Source of the DNA: Methanospirillum hungatei
GTDB lineage: Archaea; Halobacteriota; Methanomicrobia; Methanomicrobiales; Methanospirillaceae
Reading direction: 5' to 3'
Length of the DNA stretch: 64,000 bases
Assembly (NCBI RefSeq): GCF_019263745.1
Contig: NZ_CP077107.1
Span: 2,728,001 to 2,792,000 of the forward strand
The notes under the pieces are model-generated. The model was not told the origin of the DNA. It ran no database searches and worked only from the letters and a program-made list of their open reading frames with translations. This document shows, one piece after another, positions 52,220-62,770 of this stretch (position 1 is the first letter of the stretch; every line of letters begins with the position of its first letter). A program made the position numbers and the translations under genes.

Positions 52220-52564
52220 TTACTTTTTCGATTCAAGGGATTTTTCAAGTGCATCAAGTCGTGCCTCAAGTTCGGAGAGGTTTTCAATAAACTCGTTCTC
52301 AAACTTTTTCACTTCTGCAATCTTCATCTCATCTGCATCAAGGGTTGATCCCCGTTCTTCTTTGAACCGTTTCAGTTTTGGTCTGCGAACGACTCCCCAT
52401 TCCTCAACAAGCTGGGCAAACCGACGGTCAAGATATTCATCCACCCTGCTCTCAACCGGTCTTCTGAGTGATACCCTGCCAGATGATCCCTGGTAGAACC
52501 AGAAGAGCAGAAATGCAACAATAAGGACGATAAGGATGATTAAAAGAATCTCAATAAGCGTCAT
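52220..52564 (-). CDS. Membrane-anchored coiled-coil protein with YLDRR...W motif
   Basis: 114 residues. An N-terminal membrane helix (LLIILIVLIVAFLLFWFYQG) is followed by a soluble part starting with DEYLDRRFAQLVEEWGVVR (about 42-60) and a C-terminal coiled coil (ENEFIENLSELEARLDALEK). The YLDRR...EEW segment is shared with the two preceding small genes. The start overlaps the preceding stop by four bases. No known family recognised. Confidence 0.65.
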   Translation of the reverse strand: MTLIEILLIILIVLIVAFLLFWFYQGSSGRVSLRRPVESRVDEYLDRRFAQLVEEWGVVRRPKLKRFKEERGSTLDADEMKIAEVKKFENEFIENLSELEARLDALEKSLESKK

Positions 52565-52782
52565 TTCATCTGCTCCTGAAGGGCTCGTATCCGTTCCTCC
52601 ATCCGATCCATCCGGTTATGAGATTCACGCTCAAAGGTTTTCAGAGAGTCAAGATCCTGTTTTACCTTGCGGTATCGTTGTGACAAATCCCTGATATCGG
52701 CAGTGGTGGAGAGCTGCCAGTCATCAATCATCAGTTTCATCCGGCGGTCAAGATATGAACTTAGGTAATTATCCATGTTCAT
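52561..52782 (-). CDS. Small coiled-coil protein with YLDRR...W motif
   Basis: 73 residues, without a membrane helix. YLSSYLDRRMKLMIDDWQLS (about 6-25) is the shared motif, then TADIRDLSQRYRKVKQ and a coiled coil to the C-terminus (DRMEERIRALQEQ). Overlaps both neighbours by four bases. Likely to co-assemble with them through the coiled coils. No known family recognised. Confidence 0.65.
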   Translation of the reverse strand: MNMDNYLSSYLDRRMKLMIDDWQLSTTADIRDLSQRYRKVKQDLDSLKTFERESHNRMDRMEERIRALQEQMK

Positions 52783-53075
52783 TTTCTTGCCTCCAGGTTT
52801 GAAATTGCTTTTTCAATAGAGTCTGCACGTTTTTTAAGGAGGTCTTTTTCTATATGCAGTCTACCTACCTCATAACTTAAATAATCAAGTTTTCGTGCGT
52901 ATTCACTGAGATCTGACTCGGTTACAAGTCCCCATTCTTCGATGATTGTCTCGAAATTCCGGTCAAAATATGAGTCCAGTGTCCGGTCAAATGTCGGGAC
53001 TTTTGATGTGACCGGGGTGTCAAAATGGGGAATATTTTCGAAGAATTTTCTGGTACTTCCTGATGTTTCAAACAT
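52779..53075 (-). CDS. Small coiled-coil protein with YFDR...W motif
   Basis: 98 residues. A Pro/Thr-rich head (about 1-27), then TLDSYFDRNFETIIEEWGLV (about 31-50), TESDLSEYARKLDYL and a C-terminal coiled coil. Third carrier of the shared motif. The T-x-S-D-L run into a heptad helix recalls the head of phasin/PhaE-type coiled coils, a weak similarity. Overlaps the next gene by four bases. Confidence 0.65.
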   Translation of the reverse strand: MFETSGSTRKFFENIPHFDTPVTSKVPTFDRTLDSYFDRNFETIIEEWGLVTESDLSEYARKLDYLSYEVGRLHIEKDLLKKRADSIEKAISNLEARK

Positions 53076-54418: not shown

Positions 54419-55033
54419 ATGGGAATCGAAAAGTTAATGGAAGGAAATCAGACCTTCGTCGAGAATGAATACGCAGAGAACATAGAATATTATAAGGCAC
54501 TCCTGAAGGGGCAGAATCCGCATGTCATGATGATCGGGTGTTGTGACTCGCGGGTTGCCCCGGAAATTACCTGTCATGCAAAACCCGGGGAAATATTTGT
54601 TCACCGGAATATTGGGAATATCGTTCCTCCGGGAGACTGGAATATCGGAACATTTCTTGAATATGGAATTCGTCACCTGAAAGTCAATACCCTGGTCGTG
54701 TGTGGACATGAAGAGTGTGGTGCCATGAAAGCACTTGCCAGTAAGAAGAGTGGTGACGATGTTCTGATTCCGGGATGGCTCAGACATGCACATACTGCAC
54801 TCCATGCAGTTGAGAGTAAGGGAGAAAAGCCGGCAGACCCAGAAGAAGCTCGTAAGTGGCAGTCTGAACTTGAGATTGAAAATGTAAAGTTACAGCTTGC
54901 AAATCTTCGCACCTATAGTGTGGTAAAGGATGCAGAAGATGCAGGAAAACTCCGGGTTGTCGGACTCTATTACCGGCTGTCAACCGCTCAGCTTGAGGTC
55001 GTCGATCCAGGCAAGCCATTAAAACAGGAATAA
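54419..55033 (+). CDS. Beta-class carbonic anhydrase
   Basis: 204 residues. Zinc ligands and the Asp/Arg dyad are intact: MIGCCDSRVAPE (Cys, Asp-Ser-Arg) and VVCGHEECGAMKAL (His and Cys). Interconverts CO2 and bicarbonate. HRNIGNIVPP and LEYGIRHLKVNTLVV match plant-type beta enzymes. Close to the CO2-reducing gene sets, it may keep CO2 available to Fwd (inference). A TATA-like caatatatattgg lies about 60 bases before the start. A single gene followed by a terminator hairpin. Confidence 0.93.
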   Translation: MGIEKLMEGNQTFVENEYAENIEYYKALLKGQNPHVMMIGCCDSRVAPEITCHAKPGEIFVHRNIGNIVPPGDWNIGTFLEYGIRHLKVNTLVVCGHEECGAMKALASKKSGDDVLIPGWLRHAHTALHAVESKGEKPADPEEARKWQSELEIENVKLQLANLRTYSVVKDAEDAGKLRVVGLYYRLSTAQLEVVDPGKPLKQE

Positions 55034-55686: not shown

Positions 55687-57618
55687 ATGTCAGAAATATT
55701 TCTATTCATCCTGCTCTTGTATGCTCTTGCAGGTATAGTCCCTCTCTGTATACGAAAAAAACGAATATGGGAGATATCATCCCTGATAATGGGGGTTGGT
55801 GGTCTTCTTCTTGTTGTGTCCTGTCTTTTCGCTGCCCTGCACAATTACAGTATACCGGTTTTGAAGATTTCTATATCTGCATTATACCCGGTAACTTTGG
55901 GAATTGATCGGCTTTCTGCTGTTTATTCTGTTCTTCTTGGTATCCTTACTGTGGCCGTCAGTATGTACACTCCTGGATACCTTGACCGGATGCATGGAGA
56001 CCGGAGAAAATACCTTGTCTCATCATTGATTCCCCTTTTTCTGGTGAGCATGCTTCTGGTCATCTTCTCACAGACTCTTATTGCATTTCTGATATTCTGG
56101 GAGATCATGGCAATTCTTTCCTTTTTCCTCGTGCTTACTGAGTATGAGGAGGCCAGGACACGGTATGCTGCTATTTTTTATCTTGCAATGACCCAGCTCT
56201 CAACCGTCTTCATCTTTTTTGGTATCATCCTGCTCAGGCTCATCACCGGTTCTTTTGCATATCCTGACAAGGTGTCCGGAAGTGATGTCCTCATTCCAGT
56301 CTCCTTCTTCTGCCTTTTTATTGGTATTGCCATCAAATCCGGGGTCATCCCATTTCATAAATGGCTGACGCATGCCCATCCGGCAGCCCCATCTCCGGTA
56401 TCAGCCCTGATGTCTGGAATGATGATCAGTACAGCATTGTATGCCCTGGTCAGGGTTCTTACCCGGTTTTATGAGACTGATATATCCTGGGGATATGTCA
56501 TGCTGGTCTTTGGCTGCCTGACAGCGGTTCTTGGGGTTATGTATGCCCTCAAAGAACAGGATTTGAAAGGATTGCTGGCATACTCTTCTATTGATAATAC
56601 CGGAGTCGTCCTGATAGGTCTCTCGCTCTGGGTCATTTTTGCCTCATATGGTCAATTGGATATAGCGACGATGGCACTTGTCGGTGCAATCTTTCACTCA
56701 GTTAGTCATGGCATATTCAAAGGCCTTCTTTTCCTTACTGCAGGATCTGTCTGTCAGGCTGCACACACAAGAAATATTGATGAACTTGGTGGAATTCTGG
56801 TCCGGATGCCTTCCACTGGTCTGCTCTTTTTCATTGGCATTCTCTCAATATCAGCCATTCCTCCGTTTTCAGGGTTTATTGGCGAACTTCTTATTTATCA
56901 GGCCCTTATCGGCGGCCTTATGAGTCTTGATCCATATGCACAGGTTGTCATGATCATAGCTCTTGCCCTTTTCGGCCTGACCGGAGCATTGACTGTCACT
57001 ACATTTGTGAAAGCCTTTGGTCTGACATTTCTTGCCCTTCCCCGGAGTTCTGGAGCAGAAAATGCCCGGGAAACCCCATTCTTTATGGTGGCAGGCCCGG
57101 CCGTACTTGCAGGGATGAGTATTGTTCTTGGAGTATGTGCCTATCACATTCTGGGGATTTTTGGATATCCTGGACTAATGCCTGATTTAAGCACGGTAGC
57201 TGTCCTCCTCCTTATCACCACATGCCTGGTGTATGGGGCAGTGTATGCCGGTGCTTCTCAAAAGACCAAGATCTCCCGGACCTGGGATTGTGGGATGCAT
57301 GCTCCAGGCAGTATGAACGAATATACGGGATCTGGGTTTACTGAACCGGTTGTCAGGTTTTTCTCTCCGGTGTTCCGGACAAAAATCACTGTATCAAAAC
57401 AGTACCATGATTCATTTCAGTGTCTGTTCCGGACTGGTGAGGCTGGAATTTATCTGATGAAATTCTTTGAAGAATGTCTCTATCTTCCGGTTGCACGGGG
57501 AATTGACCGGTATGCCGGGTATGTTAGTGGTCTTCAGAATGGGAGTGTTGATCGGTATGTGCTCTATGTCTTTCTCATGGTAATTGCCCTTATCATCGTA
57601 CTCGGGTGGTCGTCATGA
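55687..57618 (+). CDS. HyfB/HycC-like antiporter subunit
   Basis: 643 residues, 15 or more membrane helices, Mrp/NuoL-type ion channel. Core signatures: SGVIPFHKWLTHAHPAAPSPVSALMSGMM and LKGLLAYSSIDNTGVVLIGL, AIFHSVSHGIFKGLLFLTAG with conserved Lys and His, and SAIPPFSGFIGELLIYQ. First gene of a six-gene operon in the order hyfB-hyfC-hyfE-hyfF-hyfG-hyfI. The channel looks intact. It would move protons or sodium when driven by a soluble arm. The next gene starts inside its stop (ATGA). Confidence 0.85.
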   Translation: MSEIFLFILLLYALAGIVPLCIRKKRIWEISSLIMGVGGLLLVVSCLFAALHNYSIPVLKISISALYPVTLGIDRLSAVYSVLLGILTVAVSMYTPGYLDRMHGDRRKYLVSSLIPLFLVSMLLVIFSQTLIAFLIFWEIMAILSFFLVLTEYEEARTRYAAIFYLAMTQLSTVFIFFGIILLRLITGSFAYPDKVSGSDVLIPVSFFCLFIGIAIKSGVIPFHKWLTHAHPAAPSPVSALMSGMMISTALYALVRVLTRFYETDISWGYVMLVFGCLTAVLGVMYALKEQDLKGLLAYSSIDNTGVVLIGLSLWVIFASYGQLDIATMALVGAIFHSVSHGIFKGLLFLTAGSVCQAAHTRNIDELGGILVRMPSTGLLFFIGILSISAIPPFSGFIGELLIYQALIGGLMSLDPYAQVVMIIALALFGLTGALTVTTFVKAFGLTFLALPRSSGAENARETPFFMVAGPAVLAGMSIVLGVCAYHILGIFGYPGLMPDLSTVAVLLLITTCLVYGAVYAGASQKTKISRTWDCGMHAPGSMNEYTGSGFTEPVVRFFSPVFRTKITVSKQYHDSFQCLFRTGEAGIYLMKFFEECLYLPVARGIDRYAGYVSGLQNGSVDRYVLYVFLMVIALIIVLGWSS

Positions 57619-58556
57619 ATTTCATCCCGGTTGTGTACGGGGTGCTGAATATTCTCCTGGTTCTCGGTCTGGCTCCCTTGTACATCACGGTGGTAAAAAA
57701 AGTGAAAGCACGGGTTCAAGGACGAAGAGGTCCCCGGATAATCCAAGGATATCTCAACCTTGCCAAGCTCTTCAAAAAAGAGGTCATCTACTCTGAGTAT
57801 GCAAGTTTCATCTCACGGCTTGCCCCATATGCCTCACTCTCGATTCTCCTGGTTGCAGCACTTATGGTCCCCCTTGTCTGGGTACCGGATCTGGAACCGG
57901 TGACGGGGAATATCATCGTGTTTCTTTACCTGCTTGTAGCGGGCCGTCTGCTCCTGGCTTTGCTTGGTCTTGATGCAGCGAGCAGTTTTGGCGGGATGGG
58001 CAGTTCCCGTGAGATGAGCCTTTCAGCGATTATCGAGCCGGTAACCGTACTGGTCTTTGCGGCTCTTGCCTTTGTCATGGGAAGTCTTTCAATACCTGAG
58101 ATGTTCCGTCATGCAGCTCTTGAGTCTCCCTCATGGTCTCCGACGATCCTGCTTCTTTGCATCTCGCTGTTTATCCTGATAATTGTTGAAACCGGTAGGA
58201 TTCCGGTGGATAATCCGGAAACTCATCTTGAACTGACCATGGTTCATGAGGGGATGCTTCTTGATACCTCTGGAAGAAATCTGGCCCTCTTCGAACTCTC
58301 TCATGGAGTAAAACAGGTGCTCCTAATGGCATTGCTCATCAATATTCTGGTTCCTGCTGGATTGATGTTTGAATTTTCAGTTCCTGCCCTTATTATTGGG
58401 TGCATCCTGTTTCTTCTGAAAGGAACAGTCCTGTCCATTGGTATCGGACTCTTTGAGTCATCTTTTGCAAAAATGCGGTTCTTTCAGATACCAAACCTCT
58501 TCATGATAGCGTTCTTCTTCTCCATTCTTACGATCTTTATCGAGGTGATGATATGA
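57615..58556 (+). CDS. HycD/HyfC/NuoH-like membrane subunit
   Basis: 313 residues from the ATG at 57615 overlapping the previous stop; a GTG at 57606 is less likely. About eight membrane helices. NuoH signatures: KVKARVQGRRGPRIIQGYLN (loop contacting the soluble arm) and ETGRIPVDNPETHLELTMVHEG (acidic funnel). It anchors the hydrogenase-like subunits to the membrane. Full length and well conserved, in contrast to the degenerate soluble subunits downstream. Confidence 0.87.
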   Translation: MNFIPVVYGVLNILLVLGLAPLYITVVKKVKARVQGRRGPRIIQGYLNLAKLFKKEVIYSEYASFISRLAPYASLSILLVAALMVPLVWVPDLEPVTGNIIVFLYLLVAGRLLLALLGLDAASSFGGMGSSREMSLSAIIEPVTVLVFAALAFVMGSLSIPEMFRHAALESPSWSPTILLLCISLFILIIVETGRIPVDNPETHLELTMVHEGMLLDTSGRNLALFELSHGVKQVLLMALLINILVPAGLMFEFSVPALIIGCILFLLKGTVLSIGIGLFESSFAKMRFFQIPNLFMIAFFFSILTIFIEVMI

Positions 58557-59245
58557 TTACACCCGAATCAGCCCCTGTACTGGTCAGGATCTCTCTGGTC
58601 CTGGTATTAGTATCGGCTGCATTTCTCCTCTCGTCACGAAACCTCCCTAACCTAGTCAGGATCTATCAGCTCCAGTCACTCCTATTGGTTATCATCGCCG
58701 TATTTCTGGCCGGAATTGAAGATCATGCACTATTGTTTCTGGTAGCAGGACTGACCTTTATCTCCAAAGTGTGGGGTATTCCAACCTTTATCCGGATGAT
58801 ACAACAGCGGATCCAGATACACCAGGATATCAGGTTCTCATATCTTCATCCGGCAGGTGCCCTGATAGTGAGTATCCTGATAATTCTCCTGGTATACACC
58901 TGTTTCTCCAGGATTCTTGATTCATTATACGAAAGCAGCAGTCTCTTCTTTCTGGGTAGTGTAATCGGAGTATCCATGGTCCTGATGGGGCTTATTGCAG
59001 TCTTCTCCCGGAAGATGGCAATTACAAAAGTCATCGGGTACCTGTCTATGGAAAACGGGGTTCTGTTGTTTGGTATGTTTGTAACCGAACTTCCCTTTAT
59101 CATCGAGTTTGTCATCATGGTTGACCTGATAATCCTGGTGCTCCTGACATCGATTCTCACCGTCGGGATTGACTCATCTATTGAGGAGTATAAGGAACGA
59201 ATGCAGGAGTTTCATCTTTTCACCGGTGAGGAGGCAGTCCAATGA
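58553..59245 (+). CDS. HyfE-like membrane subunit
   Basis: 230 residues with six to seven hydrophobic helices (LVRISLVLVLVSAAFLLSS; SLFFLGSVIGVSMVLMGLIAVF; LIILVLLTSILTVGI). HyfE/MnhC-NuoK-like, with the family segment VIGYLSMENGVLLFGMFV. Overlaps both neighbours by four bases. A small ion-channel subunit in formate-hydrogenlyase-type complexes. Confidence 0.8.
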   Translation: MITPESAPVLVRISLVLVLVSAAFLLSSRNLPNLVRIYQLQSLLLVIIAVFLAGIEDHALLFLVAGLTFISKVWGIPTFIRMIQQRIQIHQDIRFSYLHPAGALIVSILIILLVYTCFSRILDSLYESSSLFFLGSVIGVSMVLMGLIAVFSRKMAITKVIGYLSMENGVLLFGMFVTELPFIIEFVIMVDLIILVLLTSILTVGIDSSIEEYKERMQEFHLFTGEEAVQ

Positions 59246-60711
59246 TAGCAATGACTTATCTGGTTCTGGCCGGAATCATCCTGCTGTGCCAGTTAATACA
59301 GAAGAGACACACATGGTTGAGTTATTTGAGTGTCATCCATGCTGCTGGATCAGTGCTCATAACTGTTCTTTTGATTCTCTCCCCGAATGAGTGGGAAAAT
59401 GAGACTTTTTTCCTCATTGATCATGTGAATCTGTTTATCATGCTCATCACCGGCATTATCTTTACGAGTGCCAGTGTGTATGCAGTGGGGTATATTGATG
59501 GTCTTGTCAAATCAGGTGACCTTGAAAAGAGAAGTCTTCGGATTTTTTATTTTGGATTATCAACCCTGCTTCTGGTCACGACGATGGCGTTATTTTCTCC
59601 AAATGTGGCCCTGTTCTGGATATTTGCCGAACTGACGACAGTGCTCTCTGCCCTTTTGATTGCAATCCTTGCTGTCAGGGCGAATATCGATGCATCCCTG
59701 AAATACATCTTTGTCTGTTCTACTTCCATGCTGTTCTCATTTATCGGGATTATTTTTCTTTTTGAGGCTGTTCAAAATAAAACCGGGATGGGAAGTCTTG
59801 ATTGGGCGGTTATTGTCCAGGAAGCTGCCGGGTGTGACAGCGGGATGATATGGATTGCCTTTGTCTTCTTCTTTATCGGGTTTGCTGCAAAGTCAGGTAT
59901 TGTTCCGTTCCACACCTGGCTTCCTGAAGCCCATGCAAAGGCACCTTCAGCGGTCAGTGCGGTCCTCTCTGGTGCTATCCTGAATGTGGGAATGTATGGT
60001 ATTCTTCGGATGACCGGAATAGTCCACCAGACTGAAGTTTTTGATCAAGCCTCTCTTCTTCTGCTGGTCTTTGCCATGATCACCATGTCCCTGGCCTGCC
60101 TGTCAATGCTCAGGCAGAAAAAACTCAAAGTCCTGATCGCTTTTTCGTCGATAGAAAATATGGGTTTTATTCTGCTTGGTATCGCTATTGGAGCTCCAGT
60201 GGCTCTTTTCTGGGCATTATATCATATGCTTGGTCATTCCTGCATCAAGGCCGGATTATTTTTATCTGCTGGAATACTGCATCGGCAATATAAAATTCCG
60301 ACAAAAACCGGGGAAGATGAGATTGGTGATCTCTTCAGGCTTCAGCCATATGCAGCTCTCACCCTTTTTGCAGGATTTGCCGCTCTTATTGGTATGCCGG
60401 TGTTTCCCCTGTTCCTCTCAAAATTAGGAATACTCATGGCATCGGCTGAAGTCTCGATCTGGATACCTGCAGTAACGCTTCTTCTCTTTGCAATCGCGGC
60501 TACAGCCCTGGTACGATATTATCTCTCCATTATGGCCGTCCGGTTTTCAGATGGGGAAGGACCACAGCCATATCGGGCACCGTTCTCGATGGCAATCCCT
60601 ATTATTGCTCTTCTTCTCCTGTCTGCTGGTATCGGGATTATCATGATCCCTGGAGAGGAGGCATTTCTCACCGCTGCTGTTGCTGATTTAGGAATGGGGG
60701 TAAGCCCATGA
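59242..60711 (+). CDS. HyfF-like antiporter subunit
   Basis: 489 residues, 13-14 membrane helices, second NuoL/M/N-type channel. Signatures: KSGIVPFHTWLPEAHAKAPS, KLKVLIAFSSIENMGFILLG, ALYHMLGHSCIKAGLFLSAG and AALIGMPVFPLFLSKLGILM. The key Lys, His and Glu of the proton path look intact. Together with the HyfB-like subunit the complex has two channels, as in Hyf (hydrogenase 4). Four-base overlaps on both sides. Confidence 0.85.
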   Translation: MIAMTYLVLAGIILLCQLIQKRHTWLSYLSVIHAAGSVLITVLLILSPNEWENETFFLIDHVNLFIMLITGIIFTSASVYAVGYIDGLVKSGDLEKRSLRIFYFGLSTLLLVTTMALFSPNVALFWIFAELTTVLSALLIAILAVRANIDASLKYIFVCSTSMLFSFIGIIFLFEAVQNKTGMGSLDWAVIVQEAAGCDSGMIWIAFVFFFIGFAAKSGIVPFHTWLPEAHAKAPSAVSAVLSGAILNVGMYGILRMTGIVHQTEVFDQASLLLLVFAMITMSLACLSMLRQKKLKVLIAFSSIENMGFILLGIAIGAPVALFWALYHMLGHSCIKAGLFLSAGILHRQYKIPTKTGEDEIGDLFRLQPYAALTLFAGFAALIGMPVFPLFLSKLGILMASAEVSIWIPAVTLLLFAIAATALVRYYLSIMAVRFSDGEGPQPYRAPFSMAIPIIALLLLSAGIGIIMIPGEEAFLTAAVADLGMGVSP

Positions 60712-62249
60712 GTGTGATGGGATCACCTGGCCTTCCTTCATCATGGCTCATAAAATCAGATGCCACCGCGGTATATTACTCTGTGCCAGCGGAGGACCTG
60801 AAAAATATCCTTACCGCAGAACTTGCCCGTGAGTCCAGGCTTGTCTGGATTTTTTGCACCGATGAAAGCAGGACAACCGAGGTATTCAGACTCTGGTACG
60901 TGATTGAAGAGGCAGAACGGCCAGAATTTATAGTTCTTGTTGTAGATACTTCCCACCCGGAATCAATTGCCTCTCTCTATCCGGTTGCCTCGTATTTTGA
61001 GCGGAAGATAGCAGATGAGTTTGGTATCAGGTTTGAAGGATCTGTTGACGAGAGAAGACTGTTGCTCCATGAATGTTACCCGGAAGGATTTTATCCACTG
61101 CGAAAAACCACAAAAAATGGCCCGGTTCAGACTACTGAAAAGACTGCTCCTTATGAATTCAGACAGGTACAGGGAACTGCTGTGTATCAGGTTCCGGTCG
61201 GTCCGGTTCATGCCGGGATTATTGAACCTGGTCATTTCAGGTTCTCTGTCATTGGTGAGACAATTGTCAACCTTGAGCTCAGGCTTGGGTACCTGCACCG
61301 GGGAATTGAAAAACTGGCTGAAGGATCCGATCCTTTCTCTGGGATCCGGATTGCAGAATCCATATCCGGAGATGAATCTGCGGCACTTGCCTGTTGCTAT
61401 GCAATGGCTATAGAAACGATTGCATCCATCCGTATTCCTGATCGGGCTGCTGCTCTCCGGGTTATTCTGCTTGAACTGGAACGGTCATACTCTCTCCTTT
61501 CTGATCTTGCCGGAATGGTGACCGATGTTGCATTCTCTGCAGCAGCGGCCAGGTTTTTAATCATCCGGGAAGAACTCCAGCGATCATGTGAAATGATCAC
61601 CGGTTCACGGTTTTTAAAAGGTATACTTACAGTTGGTGGCCTGTCACGGGACATTCCGGATGATCTTCTTATGGCACTCAAAGACACGGTCATACAATCT
61701 CTCGTGGATCTTGATGAGGTTTTTACCTGGACATTATCTGTCCCATCGGTGATTGACCGGTTTTCAACAACCGGTGTTGTCAGAGAACCTCTGATTGATC
61801 CACTTGCTCTTTCCGGACCCATTGCACGGGCAAGTGGAAGAGCATGTGATGTCAGGGCTGATCACCCCTATGGCTGGTATCTGGCTCATCCGCCGTGCGT
61901 TATATTCAAGAGGGATGGCGATGTGCTGGCCCGGTTTTCAGTTAAAGGAGAAGAGATTCGTGCATCTCTTACCCTAATCAAGGAGATGATTCCTGATATT
62001 CCAAAAGGACCGGTTCATGTTACTGCCACGATTCGGGATGGATTTAGCTTATCAGCACTTGAATCTCCCCGTGGACGGACCCTCTTCTGGATTAAAGTCA
62101 TTGATGGCAAAATTGACCGGTTTGCGGTCTCAACCGCGTCGTTTTGTAACTGGCTTGCAATTGAACATGCAGTTATGGGAAATATTGTCCCTGATTTCCC
62201 GGTGATAAACAAGAGTCTGAATCTATCGTATGCAGGGACTGATCTGTGA
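60708..62249 (+). CDS. HycE/HyfG-like large subunit lacking all Ni-Fe ligands
   Basis: 513 residues: a NuoC-like part (about 1-150, SYFERKIADEFGIRFEGS...LLHECYPEGFYPLR) fused to a NuoD/hydrogenase-large-subunit part (GPVHAGIIEPGHFRFSVIGE; LELRLGYLHRGIEKLAEG). At the first Ni-binding motif, where HycE has RVCGICGF, this protein has SISGDESA. At the C-terminal DPCYSC motif it reads LNLSYAG. All four Cys ligands are therefore replaced. The protein otherwise aligns along its length, so it is a complete but non-hydrogenase homologue, like NuoD or the energy-converting-hydrogenase-related (Ehr) group. Confidence 0.85.
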   Translation: MSVMGSPGLPSSWLIKSDATAVYYSVPAEDLKNILTAELARESRLVWIFCTDESRTTEVFRLWYVIEEAERPEFIVLVVDTSHPESIASLYPVASYFERKIADEFGIRFEGSVDERRLLLHECYPEGFYPLRKTTKNGPVQTTEKTAPYEFRQVQGTAVYQVPVGPVHAGIIEPGHFRFSVIGETIVNLELRLGYLHRGIEKLAEGSDPFSGIRIAESISGDESAALACCYAMAIETIASIRIPDRAAALRVILLELERSYSLLSDLAGMVTDVAFSAAAARFLIIREELQRSCEMITGSRFLKGILTVGGLSRDIPDDLLMALKDTVIQSLVDLDEVFTWTLSVPSVIDRFSTTGVVREPLIDPLALSGPIARASGRACDVRADHPYGWYLAHPPCVIFKRDGDVLARFSVKGEEIRASLTLIKEMIPDIPKGPVHVTATIRDGFSLSALESPRGRTLFWIKVIDGKIDRFAVSTASFCNWLAIEHAVMGNIVPDFPVINKSLNLSYAGTDL

Positions 62250-62257
62250 GGATTACC

Positions 62258-62770
62258 ATGAATATTCTCTCACTTTTACTCAAAAAACCAAAAGTCACCA
62301 GGTCAAATACCACAGATCTGGTATTTGAATCGACAGGATTGATGCTCAGGCAGGAGATTGATCGCGTATTTGGGAATAGTATTGCGATCCGGGAGGTTGA
62401 CTGTGGAAGTGACAATGCTGCTGAGATTGAACTAGCAAATCTTTCTGCCCCGCATTACGATGTTGAACGGTTTGGTATCACGTTTGTTGCATCACCCAGG
62501 CATGCAGATGTTCTTGCGGTCACCGGTGTTGTTACTCATGCCATGAAAGAAGCCCTGATAAAGACATATGAAGCAACCCCTGAACCAAAATTCGTCATAG
62601 CAGTGGGTGATGATGCCTGCACCGGCGGGATATTTGCAGAAAGTTATGCAGTTTTGGGACCGGTTGATTCTGTAATTCCTGTTGACCTGAAGATTCCGGG
62701 AAATCCCCCGACACCTGCTGCCATCATGAAAGGACTGCTTATGATGATGCAGTCGGCGGAAAAAAGGTAA
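62258..62770 (+). CDS. HyfI/HycG/NuoB-like small subunit lacking cluster ligands
   Basis: 170 residues from the ATG at 62258, with gtgagg before it; a GTG at 62246 overlapping the previous stop is possible. NuoB/HycG fold: LSAPHYDVERFGITFVASPRHADVLAVTGVVT is nearly canonical. The proximal [4Fe-4S] ligands are missing: the CGGCNGC-type motif is CGSDNAA, the GAC position is GDD (a Cys lies two residues later), and the PGCPP motif is PGNPP. Last gene of the operon; no HyfH/NuoI-like ferredoxin gene follows. Confidence 0.85.
   Translation: MNILSLLLKKPKVTRSNTTDLVFESTGLMLRQEIDRVFGNSIAIREVDCGSDNAAEIELANLSAPHYDVERFGITFVASPRHADVLAVTGVVTHAMKEALIKTYEATPEPKFVIAVGDDACTGGIFAESYAVLGPVDSVIPVDLKIPGNPPTPAAIMKGLLMMMQSAEKR

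Follow-up and report, generated by a model that had tools for sequence, protein, structure and literature searches.

How complex I couples electron transfer at one of its ends to ion channels far from it is a long-standing open question, and a natural relative that combines the soluble module and the channels without a redox centre would be a clean test of conformational versus electrostatic coupling. The 64,000-nucleotide stretch of Methanospirillum hungatei DNA analysed here (hereafter, the window) carries an operon that may encode such a relative, and it raises the question of what drives a complex I-like machine once its redox centres have gone. If the answer proposed below is true, complex I-like pumping or antiport could run, and be studied, without electron transfer.

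The operon (55687-62770, forward strand, as are all its genes) corresponds to the published ehrABCDLS of M. hungatei (PMC4704411), Ehr standing for energy-converting hydrogenase-related. It comprises six genes in the order HyfB/NuoL-like, NuoH-like, HyfE-like, HyfF/NuoM-N-like, fused NuoC-D-like and NuoB-like, and adjacent genes share 4-13 overlapping bases. EhrA, the HyfB/NuoL-like antiporter subunit (55687..57618, 643 aa; PF00361, 8.4e-51; NCBIfam PRK08667, 842 bits), possesses the TM5 Glu E139, the TM7 Lys K217, H337, H341, K345 and the TM12 Lys K442, all of them invariant in its clade, and was also aligned with HycC/MbhH. It is followed by a NuoH/HycD-like membrane anchor (57606..58556, 316 aa; PF00146, 4.9e-37; HycD alignment, 8.4e-38), a HyfE-like small membrane subunit (58553..59245, 230 aa; NCBIfam hydrogenase 4 membrane subunit, 5.1e-14) and a second, HyfF/NuoM-N-like antiporter subunit (59242..60711, 489 aa; PF00361, 1.6e-47; PRK08676, 636 bits), in which E130, K217, K336 and K394 are clade-invariant. 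The soluble part consists of EhrL, the fused NuoC-NuoD-like large subunit (60708..62249, 513 aa; PF00346 and PF00329; HycE alignment, 5e-93), and EhrS, the NuoB-like small subunit (ORF 62246..62770, 174 aa; PF01058, 6.6e-27), whose start is more likely the ATG at 62258, because a GAGG lies 7 nt upstream of it. The membrane arm thus has what is expected of complex I channels, namely two NuoL/M/N-like subunits with the TM5 Glu and the TM7/TM12 Lys; both channels and the NuoH-like subunit are intact, with their canonical Lys/Glu/His residues invariant.

The ligand positions of the proximal [4Fe-4S] cluster in EhrS were placed by aligning EhrS with E. coli HycG (7z0s), which required no gaps, and by comparison with about 100 homologues, and they are occupied by D56, A59, D123 and N153. 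Accordingly, GSCNGC has become GSDNAA (the D56-N57-A58-A59 codons, 62411..62422, + strand, replace C-N-G-C), G-x-C-A has become G-D-D-A (D123, 62612..62614, + strand, replaces the third ligand Cys, next to the invariant D122 and C125), and PGCPP has become PGNPP (N153, 62702..62704, + strand, replaces the fourth). In EhrL, alignments with HycE and with orthologues place S220, E223, S507 and G510 at the former Ni-Fe ligand positions. At the sequence level, none of the six subunits shows an Fe-S, Ni-Fe or flavin site, and no ferredoxin gene was found within 55687-62770. The operon therefore lacks the four Ni-Fe cysteines, the proximal [4Fe-4S] cluster and the ferredoxin-type subunit of group 4 [NiFe] hydrogenases, as well as the NuoB N2 cluster and the NuoI-type ferredoxin subunit of complex I (Nuo/Fpo). 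These results agree with the sequence-only reading of the window, which had placed the start of EhrS at 62258, had described its CxxC as D-N-A-A and its PGCPP as PGNPP, had noted the absence of a HyfA/HyfH-like ferredoxin gene from the operon and had called the two ion channels and the NuoH-like anchor intact. That reading had considered the third ligand to be shifted or gone; only the latter holds, because C125, the candidate for a shifted ligand, is an older cysteine, which 21 of 48 Cys-bearing relatives possess together with the true ligand.

Scans of public genomes revealed orthologues in Methanospirillum, Methanoregula, Methanofollis, Methanosarcina, Altiarchaeota, Aenigmatarchaeota, Woesearchaeota, Thermoplasmatota, Bathyarchaeota and Dehalococcoidia. 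The ligand loss is common to all 61 distinct EhrS orthologues, more than chance would produce, and in these the four former ligand positions are occupied by Asp (61), by Thr (34), Ala (23), Pro (3) or Val (1), by Asp (57) or Glu (4), and by Asn (60) or Asp (1), while D122 and C125 do not vary. A sequencing error or a local pseudogene can thus be rejected as the source of the changes, as the same residues recur in orthologues, e.g. in a metagenome-assembled genome labelled M. hungatei, the EhrS of which is 81% identical to that of the window. Every complete ligandless locus (about 45 operons) contains the same six genes and no ferredoxin, so that both absences, for which a search of orthologous operons had been suggested, are conserved clade-wide.

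The nearest relatives of this clade are Cys-bearing Ehr complexes of Nitrososphaeria, Pseudomonadota and some Halobacteriota, which have the same six core subunits as the window, likewise lack the Ni-Fe ligands, and share with the window EhrL the motifs VGPVHAGIIEPGHFRF and NKSxNxSYxGxD. Unlike the window protein, their EhrS retains the four cysteines (48 of 48 sister sequences), as had been anticipated for Ehr-type small subunits that have lost Ni, and some of them possess a separate 112-aa ferredoxin gene or a ferredoxin domain at the EhrS N-terminus. In a large-subunit tree the ligandless sequences form one clade (SH-aLRT 100; 37 rows, later 47), nested among the Ehr without Ni ligands but with cluster cysteines; our trees are of the "quick" kind and include some long branches. 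By plain polarity of the sequences, the Ni-Fe site appears to have been lost first, and the cluster ligands and the ferredoxin later, in the ancestor of the clade. The pocket residues of EhrL are common to the ligandless clade and the Cys-bearing Ehr, therefore the pocket was retained without the cluster.

Loss of all catalytic ligands could mean that the soluble subunits are relics of a decaying pseudo-complex, of which the membrane arm alone is still in use. In pairs whose dS is not saturated, however, pairwise dN/dS (Nei-Gojobori, own script) is 0.03-0.20 for each of the six subunits, apart from a value of 0.33 for NuoB in one pair of very low dS, and soluble and membrane subunits are alike, i.e. 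the comparison proposed by the sequence-only reading reveals purifying selection on both. Moreover, 94 positions of EhrL and 42 of EhrS are invariant, no reading frame is broken and the family occurs in many phyla. We therefore reject decay of the operon and regard the relic explanation as barely credible, as the selection data already refute it if the soluble part is more than a scaffold. The predicted folds are also conserved: in single-chain models, EhrL matches HycE (7z0s_E) with Z 43.0, and the AlphaFold (AF2) model of EhrS (pLDDT 89.5) matches NuoB, MbhJ and HycG with Z 18-20.

Among solved structures, E. coli formate hydrogenlyase-1 (HycC, D, E, G; 7z0s) is the closest relative, alone or jointly, of EhrL, EhrA and the NuoH-like subunit; for EhrS it ranks first by sequence (5e-38) and level with complex I by fold. 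Unlike the window complex, it possesses the Ni-Fe site, the proximal cluster and the HycB/HycF ferredoxin-type subunits, and it has one antiporter subunit. The same ABCDLS set has been described in this genus (Mhun_1817-1822, termed Pmh by Anderson et al. 2009), and a large subunit devoid of the Ni-Fe cysteines was reported there (PMC2686161) and likewise in PMC4704411. Homologues in Methanosarcina acetivorans and M. mazei have been reported as well (PMC2686161). The papers on the M. hungatei complex mention the large subunit only and assume a ferredoxin-reducing role, which is unlikely because the EhrS ligands are missing. Elsewhere, Ehr has been described as lacking Ni-Fe motifs and being of unknown function, usually with an assumed role in electron transfer (PMC6349859, PMC10284858, PMC10432482, PMC4378227, PMC7304191). 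Thus Ehr is already known, and we found no mention of ligand loss in its small subunit in the open texts of the literature searched; the observation is apparently unpublished, with uncertain priority, as an earlier subscription-only report is possible.

The six-gene ligandless operon is also carried by Dehalococcoidia with genomes of 1.36-1.9 Mb (L223-L231). A membrane-bound Hyc is listed for Dehalococcoides (PMC2930330, PMC6113397) and annotated as a hydrogenase, an assignment that the sequences of the Dehalococcoidia ligandless operons do not support; this "Hyc hydrogenase" is probably the ligandless Ehr, and hence would not be a hydrogenase. Members of this family have been annotated as hydrogenases or ferredoxin reductases in methanogens, and probably also in Dehalococcoides, and they cannot function in the way supposed.

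What, then, occupies the place of the cluster? Three of the vacated EhrS positions are fixed as Asp, Asp/Glu and Asn and the fourth drifts, and this internal control, three frozen positions against a free one, argues against mere loss. The EhrS of large-genome Chloroflexota shows a similar acidic set at the proximal ligand positions (D / C-A-T / E-D / D-S), in proteins that keep a two-cluster ferredoxin domain at the N-terminus (intact in most) and in complexes whose large subunit keeps the Ni-Fe motifs RxCGxC and CYxC (CxxC). One shared origin for the acidic sites of archaea and Chloroflexota is rejected (AU p 0.00014, on "quick" trees with some long branches), and the fewest changes on the tree for the acidic replacement are three without, and five with, verrucomicrobial rows. 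Acidic residues have thus taken the place of the proximal cluster several times, also in complexes with Ni-Fe motifs, and because a similar set arose separately there, the cluster site looks remodelled rather than simply lost.

Several of these relatives are unusual in their own right. The Chloroflexota loci L232-L237 (e.g. L232:6486-8998) encode group 4-type complexes with the Ni-Fe motifs ERICGACSLSH and ELCYSCLDR, in which the absence of a normal proximal cluster was unexpected. In Verrucomicrobiota we found EhrS forms with partial ligand loss (T/C/D/D; L125, L126, L176 and L188), one of which (L176) is followed by a second HyfB-NuoH pair. One verrucomicrobial copy lacks all four cysteines: in genome G899 (L187; L145 is the same gene) a second NuoCD-NuoB pair lies directly downstream of a Cys-bearing Ehr operon, and its NuoB has lost the four ligands (GGSGAEEA, GAEA, PGWPP), with the N-terminal two-cluster ferredoxin domain intact.

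The remodelled site might hold a different mono- or dinuclear metal (Fe, Mn, Zn, Mg or another) at D56, D/E123, N/D153 and perhaps C125, which would make the complex a metalloenzyme, perhaps a redox-driven one. Three positions fixed as carboxylate or amide beside a drifting fourth would suit such a centre, as would C125, invariant in the clade and variable in relatives. In the Chloroflexota forms, with intact RxCGxC/CxxC motifs and a ferredoxin domain, an acidic site devoid of any centre would leave a gap in the electron path that is hard to make sense of; an alternative metal has to be taken seriously for them and hence for the window complex, too. In the window clade, however, there is no ferredoxin gene or domain to bring the electrons and the Ni-Fe site is gone, and the ligand set corresponds to no known Fe-S set. 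We consider this explanation unlikely on balance, though the strongest of the rivals.

The reading that we prefer, with a probability of about 45%, is that the window complex is a redox-free complex I-like ion translocator, in which the former cluster site acts as a proton- or cation-binding gate. All the usual electron-carrying metal sites are lost in one clade and the ion channels are under strong selection, therefore ions are probably moved by a non-redox mechanism. The whole electron-transfer chain would have been lost from the Ehr complex, with the soluble module and the ion-translocating arm kept, and its most likely function would be the secondary exchange of H+ for Na+ or another cation, or the coupling of ion gradients. 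The two antiporter-like subunits and NuoH would form the ion path, and the soluble EhrL/EhrS module would be the gate. The place of the former proximal cluster would be a carboxylate-rich pocket (D56, D122, D123, N153), and its binding of a proton or cation would supply the trigger that the cluster and the substrate chemistry supply in complex I. The absence of any redox reaction, the binding of a proton or cation in the pocket and the identity of the ions moved are all inferred. The sequence-only reading had likewise suggested that something other than electron transfer drives or gates the complex; the clade-wide losses and the absence of decay support it in part. Non-redox exchange of this kind is performed by the Mrp Na+/H+ antiporters, whose antiporter subunits are homologous to those of the window; Mrp lacks the NuoH, NuoB and NuoCD parts, and the window operon in turn has no MrpE, F, G or B genes, hence not the MrpA-G set. 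More tentatively, and at somewhat less than even odds, we suggest that this is a widespread complex I-type non-redox machine, in which the terminal Fe-S site, now a carboxylate site for an ion or a proton, gates or drives the membrane arm. Against a redox-free translocator stands the conservation of the soluble module, which equals that of the membrane arm in strictness although a plain antiporter could do without it. Moreover, the acidic sites of Chloroflexota, accompanied by Ni-Fe and ferredoxin motifs, suggest that such a site may allow redox work.

The genomic neighbourhood of the window operon bears on a further explanation, in which electron transfer persists via an unlinked soluble donor (flavin, F420 or electrons derived from formate) with direct access to the EhrL pocket. 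To the left of the operon lie genes for a SLOG protein, a carbonic anhydrase, small coiled-coil proteins and FdhA/FdhB (47.9-51.2 kb), and about 9 kb away, on the opposite strand, a Hdr/polyferredoxin cluster (42.3-47.0 kb); on the right, the operon is followed by a helicase, a small membrane protein, FdhB, FdhA and a formate transporter (fdhBA and the transporter at L192:10143-15115). Methanospirillum operons are thus placed between two formate dehydrogenase gene pairs and beside a formate transporter, i.e. among redox enzymes, which counts against the redox-free translocator and in favour of a donor. The donor would also be in line with the annotation "likely reduces ferredoxin", with the redox role presumed in published texts (PMC4704411, PMC6349859) and with the higher abundance of Geobacter Ehr on formate (PMC7894505), although the Pseudomonadota Ehr that we examined keep the cluster cysteines and the Geobacter complex may be of either type. 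Since Fe-S, Ni-Fe and flavin sites were seen in none of the six subunits, and the formate genes are not conserved neighbours beyond Methanospirillum, we find a donor distinctly improbable. A ferredoxin subunit encoded just outside the operon, which together with alternative ligands had been named as a finding that would overturn the non-redox proposal, was not found either; the nearest Fe-S proteins are FdhA/FdhB and those of the Hdr/polyferredoxin cluster, and neither the FdhB-type proteins nor the latter recur as neighbours of the operon in other lineages.

The surroundings of the operon form an island of C1 metabolism, with formylmethanofuran dehydrogenase, heterodisulfide reductase and formate dehydrogenase on the left (33-51 kb of the window) and fdhBA with the formate transporter on the right. 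Three coiled-coil proteins, encoded at 52220-53075 (- strand) and in a small ORF (L193:16562-16783), have in common the motif Y-[LF]-D-R-x-x-x-x-[LIM]-[VI]-x-[ED]-W; they adjoin a 270-aa protein with an N-terminus that weakly resembles molybdopterin-dinucleotide-binding domains, and the set recurs at two other Methanospirillum loci (L037, L044).

The carbonic anhydrase, a beta-class enzyme (54419..55033, + strand; PF00484, 7.9e-48), could feed a CO2/bicarbonate-coupled pump similar to the cyanobacterial NDH-1MS or DAB. It lies 0.65 kb upstream of the operon in Methanospirillum, and in reversed orientation near two Methanoregula operons. It is however absent from the other lineages, for which reason we reject it as a partner, and the operon contains no homologue of CupA/CupB or DabA, the proteins expected of NDH-1MS and DAB; a pump of this type is very improbable.

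Across lineages the neighbours of the operon vary, and several of them concern ion gradients. In the Woesearchaeote G398, with a genome of 0.9 Mb, the six Ehr genes lie inside an A-type ATP synthase operon, between B and D (gene order H, I, C, F, A, B, the six Ehr genes, D), on the same strand and with gaps of 26 nt and 15 nt (L242:6538-19900; L046:102-11104). This linkage to the ATP synthase speaks for the redox-free translocator that we favour, but it is a single case, and the variation of the neighbours between lineages counts against that reading. Also in its favour, three ligandless operons adjoin a CitMHS-family ion transporter, and glycine-betaine ABC genes follow the operons of Dehalococcoidales.
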